Below are positions 30,130-43,335 of a stretch of 64,000 nucleotides of DNA, piece after piece. This DNA is from Natronomonas pharaonis DSM 2160. GTDB taxonomy: Archaea > Halobacteriota > Halobacteria > Halobacteriales > Haloarculaceae. The stretch spans positions 1,922,001 to 1,986,000 of the forward strand of contig NC_007426.1 in assembly GCF_000026045.1 (NCBI RefSeq). Direction: 5' to 3'. The notes beneath the pieces are model-generated. The model was not told the origin of the DNA, ran no database searches, and worked only from the letters and a program-made list of their open reading frames with translations. A program made the position numbers and the translations under genes. Within the stretch, counting starts at the first letter, position 1; each line of letters begins with the position of its first letter.

Positions 30130-30229
30130 CCCCATTAACCAGCAATATTGTCATGTTCCTCTGTCGTGTCTGATAAATATAATTAAAATTATATATCTTG
30201 TACCGTCCGGCAGTTAGCCGAACAGAGAG
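30130..30229. other. AT-rich intergenic segment between lhr and the sulfite-reductase operon
   Basis: The stretch is much more AT-rich than its surroundings. It contains ATATAATT-AA-AATTATAT (30177-30194), a perfect inverted repeat with 8-base arms, on the upstream side of the strong TATA box at 30230. It may act as a terminator for lhr, an upstream promoter or a regulator site. No gene is visible. Confidence 0.45.
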
Positions 30230-30238
30230 TATATAAAA
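30230..30238 (+). promoter_or_regulatory. Strong TATA box of the rhodanese/sulfite-reductase operon
   Basis: TATATAAAA is the best TATA match in the window. It predicts transcription from about 30258-30262, which leaves a 5' leader of about 155 bases before the ATG at 30417. That is unusual where most neighbours look leaderless. Confidence 0.65.
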
Positions 30239-30259
30239 GGCCATTATACCGTGTCATCA

Positions 30260-30309
30260 CCACTCCTCGCGCCTCTACCACCGGTTTTGCGGCCACTGGC
30301 GAGGAGTGG
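30260..30309 (+). promoter_or_regulatory. 11-bp perfect hairpin at the predicted 5' end of the leader
   Basis: CCACTCCTCGC (30260-30270) and GCGAGGAGTGG (30299-30309) are exact reverse complements separated by 28 bases. With the TATA box at 30230 the mRNA should begin at or near the first arm, so the transcript would carry a 5'-terminal stem-loop. It could stabilise the mRNA, act as a sensor or be a protein site on DNA. Downstream, ATACA-GA-TGTAT at about 30360-30371 is a second small inverted repeat. Confidence 0.6.
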
Positions 30310-30416
30310 AAACCGTTTCCGCAACGGGAAGGAGGATGGGTGTACCCCTCATGTGTCCGTATACAGATGTATCAGAACCAGCCGACAAAAACGCAAACTG
30401 AGACCAAGGGGAACCG

Positions 30417-32804
30417 ATGACGCTGGATATCGACACTATCGCTCCCGAAGCGCTTGCGGACGAGCGGGAGCAGTACACCATCGTCGACGTTCGGGAGCCG
30501 AGAGACTACCGCGAACTCGGGCATATCCCGGGAGCGGCCAACGTTCCGTTCGAGCGGATTCGGGACCGCAGCACCGACGCCGCGGGCCGACTCCCGACAC
30601 CGGCGACGGTTCGACAGCAGCTATCGGCTGCCGGTGTCGAGCAAGGGGACCCACTCGTCGCGTATGACAACAGCCGCGGCGTTGAGGCGGCTCGATTTCT
30701 GCTAACGGCGGCGGTTTACGGCCACGACGGACCGCTGTATCTCCTTGAGGGTGATTTCGATGTCTGGCAGCACGACAACGAGACGGAACGCGGCCCGGGG
30801 CCGGAGGGTTCCTCGGAGTACGGCGCGGTGGCGCTCGATGAGGACGCCATCGTCAACCGTGCGACCGTCGAGGCGGCCATCGACGCGGACGAAGGGGCCG
30901 TACTGGTCGATACGCGAACGGCCGGCGAGTACGAGAGCGCCCACCTGCCGGGGGCAGTGCATCTCGGCTGGGAGGCCTTCGTTGACGCCGAAACCGACCG
31001 ACTCAAGCCGGAGTCGGAGCTGCGGACGCTGCTGGAGAGCCGCGGCCTCTCGTCCGACGACGAGATACTGCTCTACTGTAATACAGCCCGGCGGCTTAGC
31101 CACACCTACGCCGTTCTCTCGTCGCTTGGCTACGATGAGGTCCGATTCTACGAGGGCGAACTTACCGGTCTGGTGCGGGCGAACTCGCCCGCGTGGGACC
31201 CCCAAGAGCTCTACCACTCAGTGAGGGCGGTCGCCCCGGAAGGGTTCGACGCACTGCCGGCCGAACTCGGTGACGATATCTTCAGCCGCCTCCACCTGCT
31301 CGGACTCTACACGACCCGGCAGGACGGCTACTTCATGCTCCGAACGAAGATTCCCGGCGGGCAGCTGACAGCCGAACAGGCTCGCACTGTCGGGCGAGTC
31401 GCCGACGAGTTCGCCACCGCGCCGCCGGAACACGGCGGCAGCGAGCAAAACCCCGTCTTCGGTGACGGCTTCCTTGACGTGACAACACGGCAGGGCATCC
31501 AGATGCACTGGATTCGCATCGAGGACATGCCCGAAATCTGGGACCGGTTTGAGTCGGTCGGGCTGACGACGATTCAGGCAAGCGGGAACACGCTCCGGAA
31601 CGTCGTCATCTGCCCGGCAGCGGGAGTCGGCCACGAGACGGTCGACGTTCGCGGGCTCGCGGAGGATGTCGCCGACGCCTTCGAGGGGAGTACCCGGTAT
31701 GCGAACCTCCCTCGGAAGTTCAAAGTCAGTCTCTCGGGCTGCCACGAAAACTGTGGCCGCGCGGAGCTACAGGACCTCGGATTCGTCCCGGCGGTCAAGG
31801 ACGGCCGCGACGGCTTTGCTGTCAAGGTCGGCGGCGGCCTCTCCGACGGGCCGCGAGCGGCGACCGACCTCGGCGTTTTCGTTCCACCGGAGCGAGTCGT
31901 CGACCTCTCGCTTGCGGCTGCGGACCTGTTTATCGACCACGGTGCGTACCTCGATACTGCAGTCAATCGCTTGAAATACATCGTCGACCGCTGGGGGACC
32001 GACCGATTCCGCGAGGAACTCGAATCCTACGTCGAGTTCGAGTTCGAGCCCTACGACGAGCTGTTGACAACCGAGTACCGCGGCGACCACGTCGGTATCC
32101 ACGAGCAAGCCGATGGGAACCACACGGTTGGGCTGAACCTCCCGACCGGTCGAATCTGCGGCGATGAGCTACAAACGCTCGCCGACATCGCCGAGCGGTA
32201 CGGCAGCGGCGAGGTCCGGACGACGGCGAACCAGAACCTCGTCGTCCCCGGCGTCCGTGGCGAGGTGCTCGAATCGATGCTCGGCGAGCCGCTGCTTTCG
32301 TCGTACAGTCCCGACCCGGGGCCGTTCTCGCGGGGTATCGTCACCTGTACCGGCCGGGAGTTCTGCAAATACGGCGTTATCGAGACAAAGAGCCGCGGCT
32401 ATCGGTGGGCGAAGGAACTCGACGCATGGCTGGACGACGCCGATATTCCAGAGTCCGCTGTCCCTGAAGCCGTTCGTATTCATATGAGCGGCTGTTCGGC
32501 GTCGTGTGCGCAGCCACAAATCGGCGACATCGGGCTGCGCGGCGAAGCCTATCGCGACGAGACCCAAGCCGCACAGGCGGTCGATGTCGGCCTCGGCGGC
32601 GACCTCGACCGCGACCAGTTCGTCGACTGGGTCTCCGGCCGCATACCGGTTGGCGAAGTGCCGACAGCGGTAAAACGGGTCCTTCGGCGGTTCGTCGAGA
32701 CCCGACGGGACGGCGAGACGTTCGCCGAGTGGGCCGACCGGACCGACACCGAACGACTAGACCGAATCGTCACGACAAGCACACACCCACAGGAGGCAGA
32801 CTGA
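30417..32804 (+). CDS. Tandem rhodanese - siroheme sulfite/nitrite reductase fusion
   Basis: The 795 residues contain three parts. Residues 1-125 are a rhodanese domain in which D84 replaces the catalytic cysteine. Residues 140-257 are a second rhodanese with an active-site loop C221-NTARR. From about 275 onward is a ferredoxin-type siroheme reductase. C644, C650, C693 and C697 (CTGREFC, GCSASC) should bind the 4Fe-4S cluster and siroheme. R309 (MLRTK), R358 (TTRQ) and LPRKFK (K434, K436) match the substrate-site basic residues. Plant nitrite reductases have Asn where K436 stands and sulfite reductases have Lys, so I favour sulfite. Sulfurtransferase domains on the same chain point the same way. 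The stop overlaps the FrhB-like gene by one base. Confidence 0.85.
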   Translation: MTLDIDTIAPEALADEREQYTIVDVREPRDYRELGHIPGAANVPFERIRDRSTDAAGRLPTPATVRQQLSAAGVEQGDPLVAYDNSRGVEAARFLLTAAVYGHDGPLYLLEGDFDVWQHDNETERGPGPEGSSEYGAVALDEDAIVNRATVEAAIDADEGAVLVDTRTAGEYESAHLPGAVHLGWEAFVDAETDRLKPESELRTLLESRGLSSDDEILLYCNTARRLSHTYAVLSSLGYDEVRFYEGELTGLVRANSPAWDPQELYHSVRAVAPEGFDALPAELGDDIFSRLHLLGLYTTRQDGYFMLRTKIPGGQLTAEQARTVGRVADEFATAPPEHGGSEQNPVFGDGFLDVTTRQGIQMHWIRIEDMPEIWDRFESVGLTTIQASGNTLRNVVICPAAGVGHETVDVRGLAEDVADAFEGSTRYANLPRKFKVSLSGCHENCGRAELQDLGFVPAVKDGRDGFAVKVGGGLSDGPRAATDLGVFVPPERVVDLSLAAADLFIDHGAYLDTAVNRLKYIVDRWGTDRFREELESYVEFEFEPYDELLTTEYRGDHVGIHEQADGNHTVGLNLPTGRICGDELQTLADIAERYGSGEVRTTANQNLVVPGVRGEVLESMLGEPLLSSYSPDPGPFSRGIVTCTGREFCKYGVIETKSRGYRWAKELDAWLDDADIPESAVPEAVRIHMSGCSASCAQPQIGDIGLRGEAYRDETQAAQAVDVGLGGDLDRDQFVDWVSGRIPVGEVPTAVKRVLRRFVETRRDGETFAEWADRTDTERLDRIVTTSTHPQEAD

Positions 32805-34009
32805 TGTCGAAACGAGCGACACCCGGCGTTCCAAGCGTCGGCAACGACCCGCGGGATAGCATCACTGAGAGCCGAGAGCCGGAAGAGAAAACGTGGTTCA
32901 GAGACCTCGATGAAGCTGTCATTGAGGCCGACCGTTGTGTCCAGTGTGGTAGCTGTATGGCGGCCTGTCCTTCTGACTCCATCGGCATCGAGCCCGAGAC
33001 CGGACGGCCGACGCTGGTCCGGATGTGTACTGGCTGCTCTCGATGTTGGGACTTCTGTCCTCGGAGCGGGCTGCGCTACGAGCGGCTCAACGAACTCGAA
33101 GGCGAATCCCCCGACGCCGCCTACGCCGCCAGCGCCGACGACGACCACGAAGGCCAAGACGGGGGCGCGGTGACGGCGCTGCTGGCCGGGCTGTTAGCGG
33201 CCGGCGAAATCGATGGGGCGGTCGTCGTCAGCGACGGCGACGACCCGCTCGCCGGTGAAGCAACACTGGCGACGAGTCCCGAAGAGCTGTTCGAAAGCGC
33301 CGGTAGCACCTACAGTCAGACGATGCAACTCGGGCAAGTCGACGACCTCGTCGCCGAAAGCGACCTCGTCGACCCCGACATCGCGCTTGTCGGGACGCCG
33401 TGTGTGATTCAGGGCGCGGCGGCGCTCGATAGACTGCAGTACGACGACGAGTTGGCGTCGGTGTCTCTAACCGTCTCACTGGTCTGTACGCGGAGCTTTG
33501 CGGCCGACAGGCTCCGGTCGCTGCTCGTCGGCAACGGGGTCGATATGGACGATGTCGACAGCCTCGAAGTCGTCGGCGGTGCGTTGACAGCCCGCGATGC
33601 TGACGGACATCGGCTGCTGACAAAGGATGTCGAGGCGTTCGACGCCGCGGCTCTCCGCGGCTGTGCCGAGTGTGCCGACGCAGTCGGAAAGGCTGCTGAC
33701 ATCTCGGCGGGCAACGTCGGCAGCCCGGACGGCAAGACGACGCTTCTGGCCCGCACCGACGACGGGACGGCCGCAATCGAAGCCGCTATGGAAGCACTCG
33801 ACATCGACGAGCTAGACAGTACGGACGCCCTCGATGCCTTCGCCGACTGGAACCGGCGGCAGGCGGAGGCGACGATTCCACGGGAGCGCGACAGTGAGGC
33901 GTCGCTTACGGTCACCTACACCGAACACCGGGAGGCCTACGATGGAACCGGCCGTGAACCGGAGCCGCTCAATCCGGCCCGCGTCCACCAGTACGAGGAG
34001 TGGTGCTGA
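32804..34009 (+). CDS. FrhB-like F420-dehydrogenase beta-subunit protein with ferredoxin domain
   Basis: The 401-residue protein has an N-terminal two-cluster ferredoxin domain (C45, C48, C51, C55 and C75, C78, C81, C85). The domains of coenzyme F420 hydrogenase/dehydrogenase beta subunit follow: QDGGAVTALLAGLL near residue 118, LVGTPCVIQGAA near 196, and GCAECADAVGKAADISAGNVGSP near 285. This family binds FAD and takes electrons from reduced F420. Placed directly after the siroheme reductase (TGATG junction), it is probably the electron input for that enzyme, as in the fused Fsr of methanogens. The partnership is inferred, not shown. Confidence 0.85.
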   Translation: MSKRATPGVPSVGNDPRDSITESREPEEKTWFRDLDEAVIEADRCVQCGSCMAACPSDSIGIEPETGRPTLVRMCTGCSRCWDFCPRSGLRYERLNELEGESPDAAYAASADDDHEGQDGGAVTALLAGLLAAGEIDGAVVVSDGDDPLAGEATLATSPEELFESAGSTYSQTMQLGQVDDLVAESDLVDPDIALVGTPCVIQGAAALDRLQYDDELASVSLTVSLVCTRSFAADRLRSLLVGNGVDMDDVDSLEVVGGALTARDADGHRLLTKDVEAFDAAALRGCAECADAVGKAADISAGNVGSPDGKTTLLARTDDGTAAIEAAMEALDIDELDSTDALDAFADWNRRQAEATIPRERDSEASLTVTYTEHREAYDGTGREPEPLNPARVHQYEEWC

Positions 34010-34232: not shown

Positions 34233-35651
34233 ATGGACGACCGTGCGGTGTCGAACACTGTCGGAATTGTGCTCATCCTCGGCATGACGATAGCCGCGGT
34301 GAGCGCGCTCGTGTTCGTTGGCGGAGCGGTGCTCGAAGACACCCGCGCGGACACCGAACAGTCGCAGGTCGAGAGTTCGATGTCGCAGTTCAGCTCCAAG
34401 GCGAGCCTCGTCGGGCTCGGCGAATCAGACGCCCAAGAGTTCGCGCTCGGACGGATTACCGACGGACAGGTAACCGTCGAGCCCGATGAAGGACACGTTT
34501 TGATGTACGTCGAGGACGCTGAGGGTGACAGAGACGACATCGGCGATGTTTCGCTGGGTGCGATGGTCTACGAGAACGGCGACACCGAAATCGCCTACCA
34601 AGGCGGCGGCGTCTGGGAACGGACTGGCGACCACAGCCGGATGGTCTCACCACCCGAGTTCCACTACCGGAGCGAGACGCTGACGTTTCCGATTCTAAAC
34701 GTCTCCGGGGCCGGAAGCGCCAGCGGCGACGTGCGGGGAGCGGCAACGCGGGGCGATGACCCACGGCAACTCTACCCCAACGTCTCGAAAAACGAAGACT
34801 TCGACAATCCACTGACCGATGGGACCGTCTACATCGAAGTCGAGAGCCGGTACTGCGAGGGCTGGGAGTCGTTCTTCAGAGACCGCTCACAAGGTGGGCT
34901 CGATGAGACGTGTGACGAGGGCGACTCGGATACGCTCGTCGTCGATTTGACTGCCTCCTTCGAGCCGGCGTTCGGCGCTACTGTCACTGCAAAACAAATT
35001 GAAAACGATGGGGCAGAGGTTGATGGGTCGACACGGGAAGGCATCATCGCACCGTCGGCGAGTGACCGCATTGAGCAACGAATCGACGACTGCGAAACCA
35101 ACGGTTGTCGCGACGATTTCTCATCAACGCTCACGCATGGGACCTACTACACGACTGACGCCGACGACATCGAGAATATCGACATCGACACGACCGACGG
35201 AGCGGTCGATATCGTTGTCGATGACTCGGACGGGGTCGACGGTACCGGGTCGATAGATATCGTCGACGGGGACGCGACTGTCTCGCTGTACGTGGGTCCC
35301 GGCGGAGAGTTCAGTATGACTGGCGGCAGCGACGAAGTCAATGTCGGCGGTGAGCCAAGCCAGTTCATCACGTATATCCATTCCGACGTGCCGGCGGTAC
35401 GGATGAATAGCGCAACGTACGTCGGCGGCATCTATGCACCCAACACGGTCATGGAAGGTGACCAAGGTGGTGGTGGCGGCTGTGGTGGTGGCTCAGTCGA
35501 TGTCACCGGCTCCGTCGTTGTCGAGAACTTCTGCTTCCAAAACGGTGCGTTCACCCACGACGATGATATGAGCGATATCGACGTCGACATCGATGCGAAT
35601 ACCGTCAAGTACCTCCACGTCAGCGAAAACCGGGTTACAATCGACATATAG
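34233..35651 (+). CDS. Prepilin-like surface protein with beta-helix-type C-terminal domain
   Basis: The 472 residues open with MDDRAVSNTVGIVLILGMTI, a type IV prepilin/archaellin-like N terminus: a short charged leader and then a hydrophobic helix. A long acidic extracellular part follows. Near residues 385-445 the segments YVGGIYAPNTVME and GSVVVENFCFQNGAF resemble the beta-helical module seen in pilus-associated proteins (DUF7305-like, from memory). A glycine run with a cysteine lies between them. Two cysteine pairs (near 207/225 and 286/291) could form disulfides. It converges on the pilus operon, five bases from the stop of its last gene, and is a likely minor pilin or adhesin. Confidence 0.75.
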   Translation: MDDRAVSNTVGIVLILGMTIAAVSALVFVGGAVLEDTRADTEQSQVESSMSQFSSKASLVGLGESDAQEFALGRITDGQVTVEPDEGHVLMYVEDAEGDRDDIGDVSLGAMVYENGDTEIAYQGGGVWERTGDHSRMVSPPEFHYRSETLTFPILNVSGAGSASGDVRGAATRGDDPRQLYPNVSKNEDFDNPLTDGTVYIEVESRYCEGWESFFRDRSQGGLDETCDEGDSDTLVVDLTASFEPAFGATVTAKQIENDGAEVDGSTREGIIAPSASDRIEQRIDDCETNGCRDDFSSTLTHGTYYTTDADDIENIDIDTTDGAVDIVVDDSDGVDGTGSIDIVDGDATVSLYVGPGGEFSMTGGSDEVNVGGEPSQFITYIHSDVPAVRMNSATYVGGIYAPNTVMEGDQGGGGGCGGGSVDVTGSVVVENFCFQNGAFTHDDDMSDIDVDIDANTVKYLHVSENRVTIDI

Positions 35652-35656
35652 CCGTC

Positions 35657-36397
35657 TCAGCCGGCAAACCGCAGTCGCATTCGGAACTGCGGGGCCTCCA
35701 GCGACTCCGTCTCGATGCGCAGCACGCCGTCGGCCACGTATTCCCACTCGCTATCCGTATCGGCCTGCCGCTCTAAGTACCGATTCCACGCCGACTGTCG
35801 CTGTGAATCGACTTCGATTTCAATTTCGTCAGCGTCCTGCAGGTCCGTCGGGGTAGTCGGCACACGGCTCGTCCGGACGGTCTCGACCTGTACAGTCCCG
35901 TCCCTAGAGACGGCTGTCGGACCTGGTGCACGGGTCGTCCCAAGCAACGGGAGCAACGTCCGCTCGCTATGTATCCGGAACGGTGGCTCCCGGACCATCG
36001 CCCCGCCGTGGCCGTCGCCGCGGATGATCGCCCCGCCCTCGTATGCGATTTCAGCATCGCCATCGGTGTAGACGAGCGGCGTATAGCGCACGGTGAGGTT
36101 CTGGTCCTCAGCAGTGGCGTCGGCATCCCGAACGACGAGTTCTGTCGGCTCGCCGTATCGCAACGTCCCGCCTGCGAGCCGCATCTCTGTCGCCCGGCTT
36201 GGCGCGCCGCCGCGGTAGATGTCGTCAGCGTTGTTCGCAAAGACATCGAACGCTCGCTCGGCGTTGTTGAGCTGTTCGGCGCTTTGGCGGTCGTCGAGTG
36301 TGGCGAAGCCGACCGTCGTGACAATCCCGATGGTGGCGACAATAAGCGAGAACACGAGCACGTACCCGACGACATCGCTGACGGCGCGGTCGGTCAC
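35657..36397 (-). CDS. Prepilin-like protein (DUF7289-like), last gene of the pilus operon
   Basis: The 246-residue protein begins MTDRAVSDVVGYVLVFSLIV, the same class of N terminus as the plus-strand protein at 34233. The middle part (PLVYTDGDAEIAYEGGAIIRGDGHGGAMVREPPF) lines up with the corresponding region of that protein, so the two are probably paralogues. This one lacks the beta-helix end. Its start overlaps the stop of the upstream gene by four bases. It is expected to be processed and inserted in the membrane by the pilus machinery encoded in the same operon. Confidence 0.8.
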   Translation of the reverse strand: MTDRAVSDVVGYVLVFSLIVATIGIVTTVGFATLDDRQSAEQLNNAERAFDVFANNADDIYRGGAPSRATEMRLAGGTLRYGEPTELVVRDADATAEDQNLTVRYTPLVYTDGDAEIAYEGGAIIRGDGHGGAMVREPPFRIHSERTLLPLLGTTRAPGPTAVSRDGTVQVETVRTSRVPTTPTDLQDADEIEIEVDSQRQSAWNRYLERQADTDSEWEYVADGVLRIETESLEAPQFRMRLRFAG

Positions 36398-36846
36398 GAC
36401 GACTGCACCTCCAGTACGTCCTCGCCGTCATCATAGACAATCGCTACCTGTCCTCCGGAGAGAGTCGTGTTTTCGACCGGCGTTTCGCTCCGGAGCGGGA
36501 CGGTCACCGTCACCTCTGGATGTGTGCTTTCGAGTTCGATATGACCCGCTGACTCTCCATCGGGCTGCGCGACGGTTATCGAGTAGCTGCCGGCGGCCGT
36601 CCGCTGTGGCAGGTCGGTCTGGAGCGTGAGCGTCTCGGTCTCGCCGGCGCGGGCGAGCCGGTCGGCGCTGGCGAGGTCGCCGGCGAGCTGTTGGCCCGCG
36701 ACGGTGAGTTCGTCGTGGGTGACCTGCTCGGTCTGGCTCTCGATGAGGCTGCCGCCGGCCATCAAAAGCGCCGAAACCAGTATCGCAGCGATGGCGAGGT
36801 TGAGCACGTAGCCGACCGTAACCGAAACACCACGGTCGTCAGTCAT
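36394..36846 (-). CDS. Pseudopilin-like protein (DUF7266-like)
   Basis: This 150-residue protein starts MTDDRGVSVTVGYVLNLAIAA, a type IV pilin-like leader and hydrophobic segment, followed by a small beta-rich domain. I choose the ATG at 36846, which overlaps the preceding stop by eight bases, over the ATG three codons upstream at 36855. Its downstream partner overlaps by four bases. The DUF label is from memory. The function is inferred from the operon. Confidence 0.78.
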   Translation of the reverse strand: MTDDRGVSVTVGYVLNLAIAAILVSALLMAGGSLIESQTEQVTHDELTVAGQQLAGDLASADRLARAGETETLTLQTDLPQRTAAGSYSITVAQPDGESAGHIELESTHPEVTVTVPLRSETPVENTTLSGGQVAIVYDDGEDVLEVQSS

Positions 36847-37702
36847 CGAACTCACCCGGCGCGACAGTCACCCTCGATTCGTAGCTGCGGTCCGGCGAAT
36901 GGATGCCGACATCGAGTACAACGCTGTAGAGCACCTCGGAAACCTCCGGGGCAGCCGGCTCCGATGTCGTGGCAACAATCAGTTCATACTCCCCATCGAC
37001 CGTGTCGGCGTTGTCGAAGCCGACAAAGTCATCGTCGAGGTCACTCGACAGCCCGAGCGGACACGGCTTCCCGTCGAGTCGTTCGTCGGTCACGTCGAAG
37101 GAAACATCGCCACTGGCGTCGACGCGACAGCGGACCTCACCGTCTACGCTGACCGTCAGGTCGTCGTCGTTCTCAGCGTCGAGGTAGACTTCGAGTTCGC
37201 CATCCCCGAGGTCGATATTGAACGGGTCGGGGTCGTCTTCGTCATCGATATCGATAGAATCCATCGAGCCGCGCTCAAGCGTCATCGAGAACGCCCTGAC
37301 GCCGTCAGCGCCGCTAACACCCCAGTTGTCGATGCCGTCGGATTGCTGGATGTGTCGGCCCTCGGTGAAACCGCTGGTGCCCGTCTCCGTCGTCGCCGCG
37401 CGCTGGAGATGTCGCTGTTCGAGCATCGATAGCGACTCCTCGAAGCCGTCTCGGACGTTGCTTTCAATGGTGCCGAAGTCGTCGCCATCCTCGTTCTCCG
37501 CCTCGATGAGCCCGCTGGCGACAGACACCGCCCCCTCCTGGTATGCCAGCGGCTCGCTTGCCGCATCCCCGTCTCGGGTCGCCACGTTGTCGGTGTATAT
37601 GGCGGTGTTGACAAGCAACGCTAAGGCGACAAACAGCACCGCCAGCACGATGCCGGCGACCAAAAGCAACTGGCCGCGGTCGCGGTCTGTCACTTCCGCC
37701 AT
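36839..37702 (-). CDS. Pilus-operon membrane protein (DUF7261-like)
   Basis: The 287 residues start MAEVTDRDRGQLLLVAGIVLAVLF, an RGQ-type leader before one transmembrane helix, with the bulk of the protein outside. The outer domain is very acidic and includes a DDEDDPDPFNIDLGDGE stretch near residue 155 and one cysteine pair (CRVDASG, PCPLG). RGQ leaders of this sort recur in the other small proteins of the operon, which suggests a common processing or assembly route. It overlaps its upstream neighbour by 13 bases and its downstream one by eight. Confidence 0.78.
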   Translation of the reverse strand: MAEVTDRDRGQLLLVAGIVLAVLFVALALLVNTAIYTDNVATRDGDAASEPLAYQEGAVSVASGLIEAENEDGDDFGTIESNVRDGFEESLSMLEQRHLQRAATTETGTSGFTEGRHIQQSDGIDNWGVSGADGVRAFSMTLERGSMDSIDIDDEDDPDPFNIDLGDGELEVYLDAENDDDLTVSVDGEVRCRVDASGDVSFDVTDERLDGKPCPLGLSSDLDDDFVGFDNADTVDGEYELIVATTSEPAAPEVSEVLYSVVLDVGIHSPDRSYESRVTVAPGEFDD

Positions 37703-38265
37703 ACGACCACCTCCACTTCAATGACGGTGTAGAGTTCGCTGTTGTCGTCGATGTCATCAGCGTAGAACTCGGTGCCGTCCAGCTGTTCGCCTTCGTAGCC
37801 GTCGCTTGTCAACTCCGAGCTATCGTACACGCCAAGCGCCCGCGTGGCGGCGACGGCGTTGTCGCTCGGCTCACCCATCCGGACCATCGACTCGGTTCCG
37901 ACCCCACCGTCCGGCTCCGCGTAGTGAACGTCGATGTTGAACGCAATCTGGCGCTCTAAGAGTGTCTTGTTAAGTGCCTCGCCAAAATCGTTCGGTGGGC
38001 CGGCGGCGTAGGTCCCTTGGTCGGGAACACCTTGGAACTCCTCTTCGTCAGGGTCCCAAAAGAGGACCGCCTCCTGCAGCATGCCCTCCCGTTCGGCCGT
38101 CGCCAGCAACCCCTCGACGGTCGCCTCTTGTTGGTTCTCGATGTGCTGGTTGGAGGTACTGGCCGAAAGCGGTGTCACTGCGGTCGCCTGTGTCGCAAAG
38201 ACCAGCCCACCGACGATGAGCACGGCGGCGACGAACGCCTCGACGGTGTGTGCTTGACCACGCAT
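37690..38265 (-). CDS. Pilus-operon membrane protein (DUF7288-like)
   Basis: The 191-residue protein begins MRGQAHTVEAFVAAVLIVGGLVFATQATAV (leader with RGQ and one membrane helix). It continues with a conserved-looking segment TPLSASTSNQHIENQQ near residue 32. It ends with a strongly hydrophobic strand (TVIEVEVVVWRK). I start at 38265, because upstream sequence in this frame overlaps the preceding gene. There are two bases between its start and the stop of the DUF7287-like gene. Confidence 0.8.
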   Translation of the reverse strand: MRGQAHTVEAFVAAVLIVGGLVFATQATAVTPLSASTSNQHIENQQEATVEGLLATAEREGMLQEAVLFWDPDEEEFQGVPDQGTYAAGPPNDFGEALNKTLLERQIAFNIDVHYAEPDGGVGTESMVRMGEPSDNAVAATRALGVYDSSELTSDGYEGEQLDGTEFYADDIDDNSELYTVIEVEVVVWRK

Positions 38266-38267
38266 TG

Positions 38268-38798
38268 TTACCACACCTCTACGGTCATTCGGTACTGGTC
38301 GCCCGCGACCGAGACGGTGCGGGTCGCGACGGCGACATCCTGCCGCTGGCTGTCCGGAGCGTTTGTCCACGCGAGGTCGGCGTCGCTGTCGACGTTGTGG
38401 CTGTCGTCGATTGCGGTTTCGGGAAGCGTCGCCGGCGATGTGGGTGACGCATCGAGTGGGTGAATCGTCACCGCGGCGTTTCGGTCATCGAGGGCGAGCA
38501 TCTGTTCTTCGTCATCGAAGTCGGTGCCACAGAACTCCGCAGGGCCGGCATCAAAGAATGCGGCTACACAACCGACAGAGAGCGTTCCGGGTTCGGCCGT
38601 CGAGGTGGCGAGCAAGTCACCCGAAAGCGTCGCGGCAGCGTGGTCGGCAACGACGAGTTTTGAGCCGCCCCCACCGGCAAAGGGGTCGAACATCGTCGGC
38701 ACGTATGCGACAACGAATATCGTCGCAAGCAGGAACACGCTCGTCCCGATGGCGAAATCGAGCGTCGTCTGTCCGCGGTCGGTCGGTACGGAAATCAT
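38268..38798 (-). CDS. Pilus-operon membrane protein (DUF7287-like)
   Basis: The 176 residues start MISVPTDRGQTTLDFAIGTSVFLLATIFV, a TadE-like N terminus with the RGQ motif and a single membrane helix. A compact outer domain follows with two cysteines (SVGCVAAF, EFCGTD) that may pair. It shares four bases with the PilC-like gene upstream. Its role is inferred as a minor pseudopilin of the assembly system. Confidence 0.8.
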   Translation of the reverse strand: MISVPTDRGQTTLDFAIGTSVFLLATIFVVAYVPTMFDPFAGGGGSKLVVADHAAATLSGDLLATSTAEPGTLSVGCVAAFFDAGPAEFCGTDFDDEEQMLALDDRNAAVTIHPLDASPTSPATLPETAIDDSHNVDSDADLAWTNAPDSQRQDVAVATRTVSVAGDQYRMTVEVW

Positions 38799-40810
38799 AT
38801 GAGCATGAACACCACCAGCGCGAGCGTGGGCAGGACAACGACGAACTTCAGGCTCGCCATGATGCTCACCTCACGAATGTAGCCGGCGATGACGCCGGAG
38901 ATGATACCTTGCAGGGTGACAGCGTGGAAAAACAGCATCGTCAGCTCGTCGACATCGAGGCCATCGCCGAACTGCCCCGCGCCGGGAGCGTCCTCGGCTT
39001 CGGCGGCGCCCGCCTGGTCGACGAGCCCAGCCATCGTATCGAGGAACTCGACTTTGAGCAGCGCCATCACGCCCAAGAGCGTGACGTAGGTCATGATGAT
39101 GATGACCATCTGCATCCGTGTTCTGGACTTGCGGTTCCGCTCGATGTCGTCTTGGTTCTCTGAGGCCTGTGCGGCCGTCGAAAGCACCTGTGTAATCTGG
39201 CTGGAGGCCTCCTGTGCCTTCGAAATGAGCTTTAGTGTCCGGGCGAGCCGTGGGATGTGGTACTTGTTGTTGAACTCCCGCAGCGCCGTCTTGAGGCTGG
39301 TCCCGTAGTTGACCTTCGCATACATCACACGGAACTCTTCGGCCAGCCGTCCCGACGAGGTGTCGGCGACGACGCGGATTGATTCCAAAAGCGTCATTCC
39401 CGTATCGTTGGCACTGGAGAGTTTCCGGAGGTCATCCGAAAGGGAGTCGGTAATCTTGCGCCGCGAGCGGACGTTCCACTCATAAAAGAGCGTCAGCGGG
39501 ATGAGGTTGATATACAGCGGGACGTAGACCCAAAAGAACGTCCCCATTACCGGGGCAGCTATCATCCCCTCCAGCGACAGCGGCGCGACGCCGGCGGAGA
39601 CGGACATTCCGACAAGCACCGCGGACGCCGGCACCGTTATCGCGAGCACCGCCAGCGGGTTGTCGCGGAAGAACAGATGCGGCCGGGCAAGCAGCTGTAG
39701 CGTGAGGTGGGTGCCCTCTTTGGTCTCGATTCGGTCGAAGACCGCCCGTCGCCCGGCGTAGTCGGCCGCGAGCCCGAGGTCGAACATCGAGCTGGACTCG
39801 TCAGCGACCGCCCCGTCGTCGGCTCGGAGATAGCCGTCCCCGACTTCGTCCTGTACGACCGTCGAGACGAGCACCAAAAATCCGGCCCCAATGAGCGGTA
39901 TGAGCCCGTATACGGTGCCGTACAGGAGCGCGTCCTGTGCCTCCCCGAGCATCGACATGATGACGACGATGATGATGAGCAACAGCGGGAACAGCGACAG
40001 CGTCATGTACATCTCCCCGAAGAGTTCGAGCGTTTCGAGGACGGTCTCCTGTTCCTGCTTGGAGGTCCGCATGTGCTTTTCCTTCTGGTCTTCGAGGAAC
40101 TGCTCCATGTCGCCCCCGGAGTTGATAATCGAGAGCATGTCGGTGAGGAACTGACTGAGCTCCTCGGAGGGCGTCTGCATCGCCTGGTTCCGGATTGCGG
40201 TCCGGTAATCGGTGTCAAAATACTCGGTTTCGAGAACGATAGACTGGAACTCCTGGGAGACTTCGCCGTAGGTGTCGTCGGCGCGCGCCATCGCTTCGAG
40301 GATTTCGAGCTGATTGAGGCCGCCGACTGACAGAGCGTACATGAACGACACCGAATCGGAAAGCAGGACGTTGATTTCGCGCTTTCTGGCGTCCGCTTCG
40401 AGATACGGCTTGGCGACCATACCGCCGAAGCCGGCGCCGAACCCGATGCTCCCGAAGAACAGCCCGGAGACAGCGATGATGAACGGGAATTTCAGCTCGT
40501 TGACGATGCTGAGATACGGCTCCGGAAGCGGCAGGCCGAGAAACGTCGGCGGCGCAGTAAGCACGACCGACACGAGGAGCCAGCCGACGAGCGTGCCGAG
40601 TAGCCACAGGAGCAGTCCCGAAAGGATACCGACGCCGAGCGATTTCGAGAGGTAGATTTCGACCGTCTGTGGGATGCGCGCCTCGGCGAGTTTCCGTTCG
40701 AGGTTGGCGACGAAGTCGCTGTCGTCGTCGAAGAGCCGCGTGTACAGCGGATAGAAGAGGTCGGCGAGGGCGTCAGTTCCGGCGGTCTGTCGACCGTACT
40801 CGAAGCTCAT
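38795..40810 (-). CDS. Type IV pilus / type II secretion F-family platform protein (PilC/TadC-like)
   Basis: This 671-residue multi-pass membrane protein carries two T2SF-type modules. The first is near residues 130-300 (LSVGGLNQLEILEAMARADDTYGE, then the membrane pair around LFPLLLIIIVVIMSML). The second is near 455-620 (SANDTGMTLLESIRVVADTSS, then MVIIIMTYVTLLGVMALL). In archaea such doubled proteins form the inner-membrane platform for pilus assembly, working with the ATPase encoded just upstream. Both neighbours overlap by four bases. Confidence 0.9.
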   Translation of the reverse strand: MSFEYGRQTAGTDALADLFYPLYTRLFDDDSDFVANLERKLAEARIPQTVEIYLSKSLGVGILSGLLLWLLGTLVGWLLVSVVLTAPPTFLGLPLPEPYLSIVNELKFPFIIAVSGLFFGSIGFGAGFGGMVAKPYLEADARKREINVLLSDSVSFMYALSVGGLNQLEILEAMARADDTYGEVSQEFQSIVLETEYFDTDYRTAIRNQAMQTPSEELSQFLTDMLSIINSGGDMEQFLEDQKEKHMRTSKQEQETVLETLELFGEMYMTLSLFPLLLIIIVVIMSMLGEAQDALLYGTVYGLIPLIGAGFLVLVSTVVQDEVGDGYLRADDGAVADESSSMFDLGLAADYAGRRAVFDRIETKEGTHLTLQLLARPHLFFRDNPLAVLAITVPASAVLVGMSVSAGVAPLSLEGMIAAPVMGTFFWVYVPLYINLIPLTLFYEWNVRSRRKITDSLSDDLRKLSSANDTGMTLLESIRVVADTSSGRLAEEFRVMYAKVNYGTSLKTALREFNNKYHIPRLARTLKLISKAQEASSQITQVLSTAAQASENQDDIERNRKSRTRMQMVIIIMTYVTLLGVMALLKVEFLDTMAGLVDQAGAAEAEDAPGAGQFGDGLDVDELTMLFFHAVTLQGIISGVIAGYIREVSIMASLKFVVVLPTLALVVFMLI

Positions 40811-43335
40811 CGGTCTGGGTCGTCGGTGCCGGTCCGACGGATGTCATCGAGGTCCGGCACCGATGTCTCCGCGTCGGTTATCCGCTGTTCGCCACCATCG
40901 GCAGAAGCGGAGGCGTCATCCGAAGGCGTGTCTTCATCGTCGACTCTCGACGGCGTCTCACTGCTCTGTCCGATATCGATATCCGTTTCGGGCTCGATAT
41001 CGAGCGCGTCGGCGACCTCACCGGCTGGCTGGTCGCGGTACTGCTCTAAAAGCGGTTCGGCCGCTTCGAGGGCGGCGGCGGTCTCCTCGCGGAGTGCTTC
41101 ACCCGGGTCGGGACGTGGAACCATCGCCTCCTTTTCGGGGTCGATATCGATTTGCACCGACTCCATCTCACGGAGGTCCTCAAGCGAGCGTTCGAGGTCG
41201 CCGCTGGCGATGAGTGAGATGATAGTGTCGGGGTCGTTAACGAACGCCTGTAGGGTCGCTGCGACCTGCGTGTAGGTGTTGAGCCCCTCATGGATGAGGT
41301 ACGCGAGGGCGACCTTCCGCTTCCGGAGCTCAGAATCGAGTCGCTGCTGTGTCCAGCCCCGGTCGAAGCGTATCTGCTCCAGCGTGTTCGAGGTTCCCAT
41401 TTCCAGGAACTGGTCGGTCTCTGCTTGCCACTGGTAGACATCGCGAACGTTTATTTCGTCGTTTTCGGGGTCGTAGTGGTTGATTTCGGTCAGCGACTTG
41501 TTCCGGCGGACCTTGTTGCCGCCGACGCGCGTCTGGGTCTGAATCGAGACCAAATCAAGCGCGGTGAACATCGTCTTCGAGACGTTGATGGGGTCGGTTG
41601 TGAACCGCTTTATCACCTCGCCGACCGAGTCGGCGTGGAACGTCGTCAGGGTCGTGTGCCCGGTCGACATGACCTGAAACAGCGTTCGGCCCTCCTCGCC
41701 GCGAATCTCGCCCATCACGATGTAGTCCGGGCGCTGCCGCAGCGCCGCCTCCAGCAGGTCGAATTCGTCGACATCGCCCTTGTCGCCGTCGCTGAATGAC
41801 GGTCGGGTGACGCTTGCAATCCAGTTTCGCTGCGGTAGCTCGACCTCGCGGGTGTCCTCGATGGAGACGATTTTCGCCTTGCTCGGGATGAAAAGCGAGA
41901 CGGCGTTTAGCGAGGTTGTTTTCCCCGACGCGGTGCCGCCGGCGAACACGAGCGACTTGTTGTTCTCGATGCAAAGCCACAGAAACGCCATTTCGTCGAG
42001 TGAGAACGTGTTCCAGTTGATGAGGTCTATCGGGGTGAACGGAACGTCCTTGAACTGCCGGATGGTGTAGTTTGTCCCGTGGTCGGAGACCTCGCGGCCG
42101 AGCGTGAGCTGCGAACGGGAGCCATCGGGCAGCGTCGCATCGACCTGTGGGCTCCGCTTGGAAATCCCCTTGCCGGAACGCTGAGCAAGCTTGACGACGA
42201 ACTCGTCGAGTTCGTCCTCACCGTGGTAGACGTTCGTGATGACCTGCTCGTAGTCGGAGTGGTAGACGAAGACAGGCGAGTTGTAGCCGTCACAGGAGAT
42301 GTCCTCGACGTTAATGTCGTGTTTGATGCCGTCGATGCGCTCGTAGCCGATGAAGTCCCGCTTGAGCATGTAGAGGAGCTTCTCTATCTGGTGGCTCGTC
42401 AGCGTCTCGGCGTCCTCTTCGACGACGGCCGGCTCCGGGCGGGCAGAGACCGCCCGCAGGCTGGAGCCACGTTCGGCGTCGTCCGTGTCGGGGGACGCAT
42501 TGTCACCGCCGTTTGCTTCCCCGCGGTCGCTGGCGTCCTCGTCGTCAGCGTCGCCGAACCCGAACTGCGCCCGAATATCCAGCCCGTCGAAGAGCCCTGC
42601 TTCACCGTCGTCGGTGTCGACAAGGGAGGAAAGCGTCGCGACAAGCCCGTCGCCGTTTTCGTCGGGACGAGCCCCGTCGGCATAGAGGTCGTAGCGGTCG
42701 AGCAGCGCGTGGGTTTCGGATTCGATAACCGACGCCCGGACATCCTCGCCGCCATGAACGACGGTCTCGTCGCTGGAGTACTTGATGGCGGTTTTCAGCT
42801 TGCCGGCCAGAAACTCACGGAGGTCGTCCTCAATCGGCGACAGATGCGGTTCGACGAGGTAGTACTTCTTTTCGTTTTCTTTCTCGGAGTGGAATATAAT
42901 GACGAAGGCGTACGGCTCGTTGACCCAGTAGCGGTCGACCTCGCGGAAGTGCTGTTTCTTTTCGTCGGGGACCGCCTTCTCGAGGTCATAGCGGGTCGTA
43001 ACGGTCGCTGCACCGCCGTCAGTCGTAAAGAATTCCGCCTCATCGACATCGGGGTCGACGCGGACGGTCCGTCGGTTCGCAGCCTCGGCGACCGTCTCGG
43101 CTGCTATGTGTGCCACACCGAGCCGTCCGTCAGCGTCACGTGGGTCGAATCCGAGATACGATTCGGGGGAAAACGGCGCATCGGCGTCGCTGTCGTGGAA
43201 CTCGCGTCGAAAGTCGTCCCAGTCGTAGGTGCCGACAGTCGCCGACTGTGTGCCGTTGTCGTCGGCTTCCGGCGCCGCTGGACCGGCGTCTGATGCCGCT
43301 CCCCCGTCGTCGCCCTCCCCCTCGTCGACGGCCAT
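40807..43335 (-). CDS. Type II/IV secretion system ATPase (PilB/TadA-like)
   Basis: This 842-residue assembly ATPase powers pilus extension. Acidic, probably disordered tails flank the core. VFAGGTASGKTTSLNAV near residue 470 is the Walker A, and IVSIEDTREVELP near 495 is the Asp box. YIVMGEIRGEEGRTLFQVMSTGH near 545-567 is Walker B and the His box. An N-terminal domain of about 300 residues precedes it. It is the first gene of a seven-gene overlapping operon, and the next gene is its membrane partner. Confidence 0.92.
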   Translation of the reverse strand: MAVDEGEGDDGGAASDAGPAAPEADDNGTQSATVGTYDWDDFRREFHDSDADAPFSPESYLGFDPRDADGRLGVAHIAAETVAEAANRRTVRVDPDVDEAEFFTTDGGAATVTTRYDLEKAVPDEKKQHFREVDRYWVNEPYAFVIIFHSEKENEKKYYLVEPHLSPIEDDLREFLAGKLKTAIKYSSDETVVHGGEDVRASVIESETHALLDRYDLYADGARPDENGDGLVATLSSLVDTDDGEAGLFDGLDIRAQFGFGDADDEDASDRGEANGGDNASPDTDDAERGSSLRAVSARPEPAVVEEDAETLTSHQIEKLLYMLKRDFIGYERIDGIKHDINVEDISCDGYNSPVFVYHSDYEQVITNVYHGEDELDEFVVKLAQRSGKGISKRSPQVDATLPDGSRSQLTLGREVSDHGTNYTIRQFKDVPFTPIDLINWNTFSLDEMAFLWLCIENNKSLVFAGGTASGKTTSLNAVSLFIPSKAKIVSIEDTREVELPQRNWIASVTRPSFSDGDKGDVDEFDLLEAALRQRPDYIVMGEIRGEEGRTLFQVMSTGHTTLTTFHADSVGEVIKRFTTDPINVSKTMFTALDLVSIQTQTRVGGNKVRRNKSLTEINHYDPENDEINVRDVYQWQAETDQFLEMGTSNTLEQIRFDRGWTQQRLDSELRKRKVALAYLIHEGLNTYTQVAATLQAFVNDPDTIISLIASGDLERSLEDLREMESVQIDIDPEKEAMVPRPDPGEALREETAAALEAAEPLLEQYRDQPAGEVADALDIEPETDIDIGQSSETPSRVDDEDTPSDDASASADGGEQRITDAETSVPDLDDIRRTGTDDPDR

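Follow-up and report, generated by a model that had tools for sequence, protein, structure and literature searches.

What does a tandem rhodanese accomplish when it is fused to a siroheme reductase, and where does such a reductase obtain its electrons? The question is raised by a two-gene locus of Natronomonas pharaonis DSM 2160, which lies in a 64,000-nucleotide stretch of contig NC_007426.1 (positions 1,922,001 to 1,986,000; referred to here as the window, in whose numbering positions are given). The first gene encodes P0001, a tandem rhodanese joined to an assimilatory-type siroheme reductase, and the second encodes P0002, an FrhB-family protein. Our analysis indicates that the two proteins probably form a two-subunit cytoplasmic assimilatory sulfite reductase of the F420H2-using (reduced coenzyme F420) type, of the kind named aFsr, with a catalytic subunit that also bears a thiosulfate sulfurtransferase. 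A first-pass annotation of this DNA had described a 795-residue protein with two rhodaneses and a complete siroheme reductase, followed through a TGATG overlap by a ferredoxin/FrhB gene, and this description is borne out by the motifs discussed below, by domain searches and by the coordinates. P0001 matches the Pfam families Rhodanese (twice, E 3.8e-30), NIR_SIR_ferr (E 3e-39) and NIR_SIR (twice, E 5.7e-52), and P0002 matches a 4Fe-4S dicluster domain, FrhB_FdhB_N (E 9.8e-20) and FrhB_FdhB_C (E 1.3e-28). Both open reading frames are intact, and the stop codon TGA of P0001 (32802-32804) shares one base with the start codon ATG of P0002 (32804-32806). Architecture and gene order are kept across dozens of species, and the locus is therefore far beyond chance.

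A comparison across 391 Halobacteria genomes shows the full-length rhodanese fusion in 30 of them, at 31 loci in all; in 31/31 the next gene downstream, on the same strand, is FrhB. FrhB matches as such are present in 126 of the 391 genomes. Unfused haloarchaeal reductases, which share about 44-51% identity with the reductase half of P0001, are likewise followed by FrhB; the 47 unfused loci inspected were picked mostly by their FrhB match and so provide no independent count of the pairing. Such a count comes from named genomes, which were scanned with an alignment of the fused reductases, a query that cannot favour FrhB; FrhB adjoins the reductase in 79 of the 80 best loci, and the 80th stops at a contig edge. 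The first-pass annotation had held that the proposal would suffer if homologues of the reductase were usually encoded without FrhB, and had suggested a search of co-occurrence and gene order across Halobacteria; that search shows constant pairing. In the reductase tree the FrhB-linked enzymes form one clade separate from reductases without FrhB (100 by the Shimodaira-Hasegawa-like approximate likelihood-ratio test, SH-aLRT). Fused and unfused types each have a single origin, a split that the FrhB tree reproduces, and the rhodanese fusion arose once (SH-aLRT 98 and 100), all in quick trees without bootstrap in which some long branches were flagged. P0002 is very likely the electron-input subunit of P0001.

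Some members of these families depart from the common pattern. One fused copy (L078, G002) lacks a cysteine triad otherwise typical of these reductases and sits on long branches in either tree, which may reflect divergence or decay. The FrhB proteins of the unfused haloarchaeal type (L079-L084, L091-L130) carry an N-terminal extension of about 130-180 residues with C-x4-C-x-C and a conserved NVDxDGxLGDLxFT, which is absent from the fused type. A second FrhB type occurs in two genomes (L085:9059-10342 and L160; G241 C1:435145 and G104 C7:49830), near the unfused FrhB group and with no adjoining reductase within the stretch inspected. Beyond the pair itself, the gene neighbourhood of the fused haloarchaeal loci shows no conservation.

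Among bacteria, the named-genome scan recovered the pair from Rubrobacter, other Actinobacteria, Acidimicrobiia, Thermomicrobia and Chloroflexia; these bacterial pairs group in a single clade (99) next to the unfused type of haloarchaea (96). The Rubrobacter-type gene order is cofD - cofC ... cysH - SIR - FrhB - X (about 116 residues) - sat - cysC - tauE. Neighbour clusters, each named from one representative and mostly above NCBIfam cut-offs (TauE by Pfam), were counted at 29 bacterial loci and include cysH (16), sat (12), cofD, cysC, tauE and a siroheme-synthase N-domain (10 each), cofC (9), and cysN and cysD (3 each, with representatives that also pass their main models). The X protein, of about 100-120 residues, directly follows FrhB at L169:8746-9093 and at 14 other bacterial loci and has no Pfam or NCBIfam match. 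At one Chloroflexia locus a tandem rhodanese is encoded downstream of SIR-FrhB. Among the unfused haloarchaeal pairs, cofC or cofG stands alongside in 6 of the 47 sampled loci, in two families and two arrangements, and more such cases occur among the named-genome loci. The bacterial operons, with their cof and cysH/sat/cysC genes, thus tie the pair to F420 and sulfite, and their context points to F420 as predicted cofactor and to sulfite derived from sulfate assimilation as predicted substrate. They also broaden the distribution of the module, which the 2012 paper proposing aFsr (PMC3448663) had given in its abstract and text as haloarchaeal.

The reductase half of P0001 contains a complete siroheme-cluster motif, C-x5-C...C-x3-C (C644, C650, C693, C697). 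Residues 431-436 read LPRKFK, and K436 occupies the alignment position of Asn226 in plant nitrite reductase, so that the first-pass annotation had placed this lysine correctly. Lysine at the plant N226 position favours sulfite. Two arginines and two lysines, together with the motif above, make up the anion site characteristic of assimilatory-type sulfite reductase (aSir); P0001 has all of them, and R309, R394, K434 and K436 are invariant in 108/108 FrhB-linked reductases examined. The combination that marks NirA, Asn at the N226 position plus nas linkage, is not found in P0001. A search of the N. pharaonis genome (2.75 Mb, 98.7% complete) shows three siroheme reductases: P0001 itself, the stand-alone Lys-type L067 (LPRKWK), and L068 (MPRKFN), which supplies the single Asn among all aligned rows. 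L068 lies next to a NarK-type transporter and a haloarchaeal NasA (1039 bits, cut-off 1000), and is the predicted assimilatory nitrite reductase. The preference for sulfite over nitrite in the first-pass annotation is thus supported by K436, by the separate Asn-type NirA and by the bacterial operons, and P0001 is very likely a sulfite reductase.

The first NIR_SIR half also contains a cysteine triad, C399 (31611-31613), C442 (31740-31742) and C446 (31752-31754), which is present in 107/108 FrhB-linked reductases and in 9/11 without FrhB and is absent from the aligned plant nitrite reductases. It is possibly an extra Fe-S site. Glu407 was considered as a fourth cluster ligand and is not claimed as one; it also occurs in homologues without the triad.

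P0002 keeps all FrhB Fe-S ligands, the flavin adenine dinucleotide (FAD) motif and the eight cysteines for two ferredoxin clusters; C200, C228, C287 and C290 correspond to FrhB Cys 104, 134, 192 and 195 (PMC3591093). Its alignment profile scores 215 bits against Fsr, 151 against FrhB of F420-reducing hydrogenase and 38 against the ferredoxin-dependent HCAR. A fold search with a structure model likewise places F420 enzymes first and HCAR last among the real matches, a result used as support only, as the model is moderate (predicted local distance difference test score 61, with the ferredoxin part and the C-terminus below 50). P0002 is the sole FrhB_FdhB_C protein in the genome, which also contains cofG of F420 biosynthesis. 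The idea of the first-pass annotation that a two-protein F420-type reductase is here built on an assimilatory siroheme reductase is supported by pairing, family and architecture.

In the rhodanese half a catalytic cysteine (C221, in YCNTARR) is present in the second domain and missing from the first, which is the arrangement of classical tandem thiosulfate sulfurtransferases. The six-residue loop CNTARR is RhdA-like and aligns with CQTHHR of sulfurtransferase 1e0c, and it is invariant across the aligned fused proteins; two domains, a catalytic cysteine confined to the second and a loop of this length are the features that define a tandem thiosulfate sulfurtransferase. No ATP-sulfurylase was found in this genome, and the rhodanese half may therefore provide sulfite from thiosulfate. 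A similar route has been proposed for N. pharaonis, in which, as summarised in PMC3402447, a sulfurtransferase splits thiosulfate and a sulfite reductase reduces the sulfite, and the sulfate-to-sulfite pathway is reported to be absent from sequenced haloarchaea (PMC3402447). Natrinema J7-2 is nevertheless reported to grow on sulfate (PMC3402447), so other sulfite sources exist in haloarchaea. ATP-sulfurylase is present in 1 of 72 haloarchaea sampled, and matches to the 3'-phosphoadenosine-5'-phosphosulfate (PAPS) reductase family are mostly weak, so that a comparison of these genomes does not discriminate whether it is specifically the fused ones that have no sulfate activation. Similar weak PAPS-reductase-family matches recur in many haloarchaea without ATP-sulfurylase. 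Taken together, we consider the chances about even that the predicted role of the rhodanese half is to supply sulfite from thiosulfate.

Combining these elements, a hydride from F420H2 would pass to the FAD of P0002, and single electrons would then move through its three [4Fe-4S] clusters to the siroheme-[4Fe-4S] centre of P0001, where sulfite would undergo six-electron reduction to sulfide. The tandem rhodanese would probably take the sulfane sulfur of thiosulfate onto C221, freeing sulfite beside the reductase. Thiosulfate could in this way supply sulfur for making cysteine and Fe-S clusters in a cell in which no sulfate-activation route is recognisable.

Several observations weigh against this scheme. 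Neither cof nor cys genes were found near any fused haloarchaeal locus, and F420H2-dependent sulfite reduction by aFsr was not demonstrated in the paper that proposed it (PMC3448663). The genome retains a 326-residue CysD-like protein (L241:1219-2196; G000 C1, about 2218 kb), well below curated cut-offs, which leaves the loss of sulfate activation unproven. At positions predicted from FrhB (PMC3591093) to contact F420, the lysine of the IGKGK turn is K or R in 6/31 fused, 31/47 unfused and 26/26 bacterial proteins and is A260 in P0002, while an aromatic residue before the S209/V210 loop occurs in 9/31, 46/47 and 26/26 of these sets, respectively, and is K311 in P0002. Use of F420 is the least certain part of the scheme because the fused subclade has changed at these two segments, and the principal alternative is the same sulfite reductase with a P0002 that, in this subclade, takes electrons from another donor such as a haloarchaeal ferredoxin. 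The FAD and Fe-S motifs have stayed invariant while the contact segments drifted, and HCAR shows that the FrhB-superfamily fold can serve a reaction without F420. P0002 is, however, far nearer to Fsr, FpoF and FrhB than to HCAR, the organism makes F420 and has no other FrhB protein to use it, and the enzyme FNiR keeps its F420H2 activity despite a deviating F420 site (PMC9295563). We therefore retain F420H2 as the likeliest donor for P0001/P0002, a prediction we hold with somewhat better than even confidence, and regard a switch of donor as rather unlikely. FNiR also bears on the substrate, as it is a siroheme enzyme of the Fsr-II type with a similar site and is an F420H2-dependent nitrite reductase from anaerobic methanotrophic archaea (ANME; PMC9295563). 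The pair could accordingly be read as an assimilatory nitrite reductase, a NirA with an F420-type donor; among solved structures P0001 matches plant nitrite reductases best, and its closest NCBIfam model is a ferredoxin-nitrite reductase, with a score far below the cut-off. FNiR lacks one of the four basic residues, an arginine, which P0001 keeps (PMC9295563). Lysine rather than Asn at position 436 in every FrhB-linked reductase, the nas-linked NirA elsewhere in the genome and the cysH/sat/cysC operons of bacteria led us to reject nitrite reduction as the best reading, and a rhodanese fusion suits sulfur chemistry; we consider the nitrite reading very improbable.

The rhodanese half may, instead of supplying sulfite, deliver the sulfide that is formed, either as a persulfide or as sulfane sulfur, for Fe-S, tRNA or thiocofactor synthesis, or may handle persulfide stress. 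Rhodaneses are often sulfur carriers, the CNTARR sequence alone is not specific for thiosulfate, and an invariant catalytic loop would fit this role as well; sulfide, however, is no direct rhodanese donor without an oxidant, and the absence of sulfate activation demands another source of sulfite. This role is possible and less likely than supply of sulfite from thiosulfate. It is also conceivable, though improbable, that the system serves mainly to detoxify sulfite rather than to supply sulfide: Fsr of Methanococcales detoxifies sulfite (PMC10229431), and the second Lys-type reductase of the genome, L067, could carry out assimilation, but the bacterial relatives lie within sat/cysC/cysH assimilation operons. 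A more specialised form of the thiosulfate scheme is a self-contained thiosulfate-to-sulfide enzyme with internal sulfite channelling, an FrhB donor shifted from standard F420H2 and a relay from FrhB through an Fe-S site at C399/C442/C446. This elaboration is doubtful; if true, it would constitute the sulfide-forming route of some haloarchaea without sulfate activation.

The features of the locus are collected in the table. A TATA-box-like element similar to the one listed also precedes one homologue (L072). An upstream hairpin, CCACTCCTCGC...GCGAGGAGTGG, an 11-base inverted repeat at 30264-30313, was examined and set aside as ordinary (fold z-score -0.02, absent from homologues), and an Rfam search near the locus gave no match. 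The adjoining genes at 34233-43335 resemble, by sequence only, a type IV pilus-type cluster with pilin-like N-termini and large membrane proteins.

Table. Features of the P0001/P0002 locus, in positions of the window.
Feature	Position	Strand	Basis or content
TATA-box-like element, putative promoter	30229..30239	+	About 180 nt upstream of first ATG; from sequence alone
P0001, aFsr-alpha-like, 795 aa	30417..32804	+	Two rhodanese domains joined to a siroheme reductase of assimilatory type
First rhodanese domain (approximate extent), without catalytic Cys	30444..30761	+	Pfam stretches; alignment including 1e0c
Second rhodanese domain, C221 in invariant CNTARR loop (codon 31077-31079)	30885..31169	+	Pfam stretch 157-251; 1e0c alignment
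First NIR_SIR half (pseudo-site half)	31581..32039	+	K434/K436 (31716-31724); Cys triad C399/C442/C446
Second NIR_SIR half	32325..32774	+	Siroheme-[4Fe-4S] ligands C644, C650, C693, C697
P0002, aFsr-beta-like, 401 aa	32804..34009	+	FrhB-family electron-input subunit
2x[4Fe-4S] ferredoxin domain of P0002	32918..33061	+	8 invariant Cys
FrhB_N and FrhB_C of P0002	33122..33808	+	FAD motif GQDGGxVT; cluster ligands C200, C228, C287, C290

The first-pass annotation was aware of no haloarchaeal system so designed, and here it requires correction. A pair of FrhB-like protein and aSir was proposed in haloarchaea from gene context as a putative "aFsr" by Susanti and Mukhopadhyay in 2012 (PMC3448663), and rhodanese fusions were counted in 19 of 529 halobacterial NirA proteins (cluster 195.2) in a 2024 survey (PMC11237513). 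Full-text literature searches, with most subscription papers outside their range, returned none that joins the fusion to FrhB, describes the operons in bacteria or demonstrates activity. A 2021 review of haloarchaeal annotation termed what F420 does in these organisms "currently enigmatic" (PMC8305020), and sulfide formation by haloarchaea is little understood (PMC3402447); the cassette is one compact candidate for both gaps.

A comparison with known systems places the pair nearest to aFsr, which consists of an adjacent aSir-type alpha subunit and an Fsr-N-type beta subunit with 2x[4Fe-4S] and FrhB parts; P0001 and P0002 correspond to both, with conserved adjacency. Unlike aFsr as described, the reductase of P0001 is fused to a rhodanese, a word found nowhere in the text of PMC3448663, and the fused type makes up a clade of its own in which FrhB has no long N-terminal extension like that of the unfused haloarchaeal type. 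P0002 keeps the FAD and cluster motifs, with A260 and K311 in place of the usual lysine and aromatic residue. The 2012 paper termed aFsr an archaeal invention, and its supplementary tree also includes a Rubrobacter Fsr-N homologue (PMC3448663); our scan shows the pair to be present in several groups of bacteria. Fsr group I (7np8, 7npa; PMC10229431) resembles the pair in that a ferredoxin-FrhB-type oxidase feeds a siroheme sulfite reductase with the same four basic substrate residues and the same C-x5-C...C-x3-C motif. It is, however, one polypeptide with a Dsr-like half and an inserted ferredoxin, while the pair described here consists of two chains, with a duplicated aSir-type reductase and without an insert, so that membership in this group was rejected; the second ferredoxin cluster of P0002 also has the canonical cysteine set, unlike that of Fsr group I. 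Cluster 195.2 is very probably the same protein family as P0001, and the passages of PMC11237513 consulted name no FrhB partner and say of its mechanism only that it would take part in sulfur metabolism. The ferredoxin-dependent reductases (Mycobacterium tuberculosis NirA, also called SirA, 1zj8; plant nitrite reductase, 2akj and 3b0h) share the reductase fold and cofactor motifs but have neither a rhodanese nor a dedicated FrhB subunit, and the aligned plant enzymes have no cysteine triad in the first half and carry Asn at the K436 position. The N. pharaonis route of sulfurtransferase and sulfite reductase (NP3186A and NP4004A, as cited in PMC3402447) follows the same path from thiosulfate through sulfite to sulfide with two separate proteins, in contrast to the single chain of P0001 with its own electron-input subunit. 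In conclusion, P0001/P0002 represent a rhodanese-fused form of the already proposed aFsr, with good support for its mechanism except as to which electron donor it uses, and what is new here is the set of bacterial operon relatives that link the pair to genes of F420 biosynthesis and sulfate assimilation.

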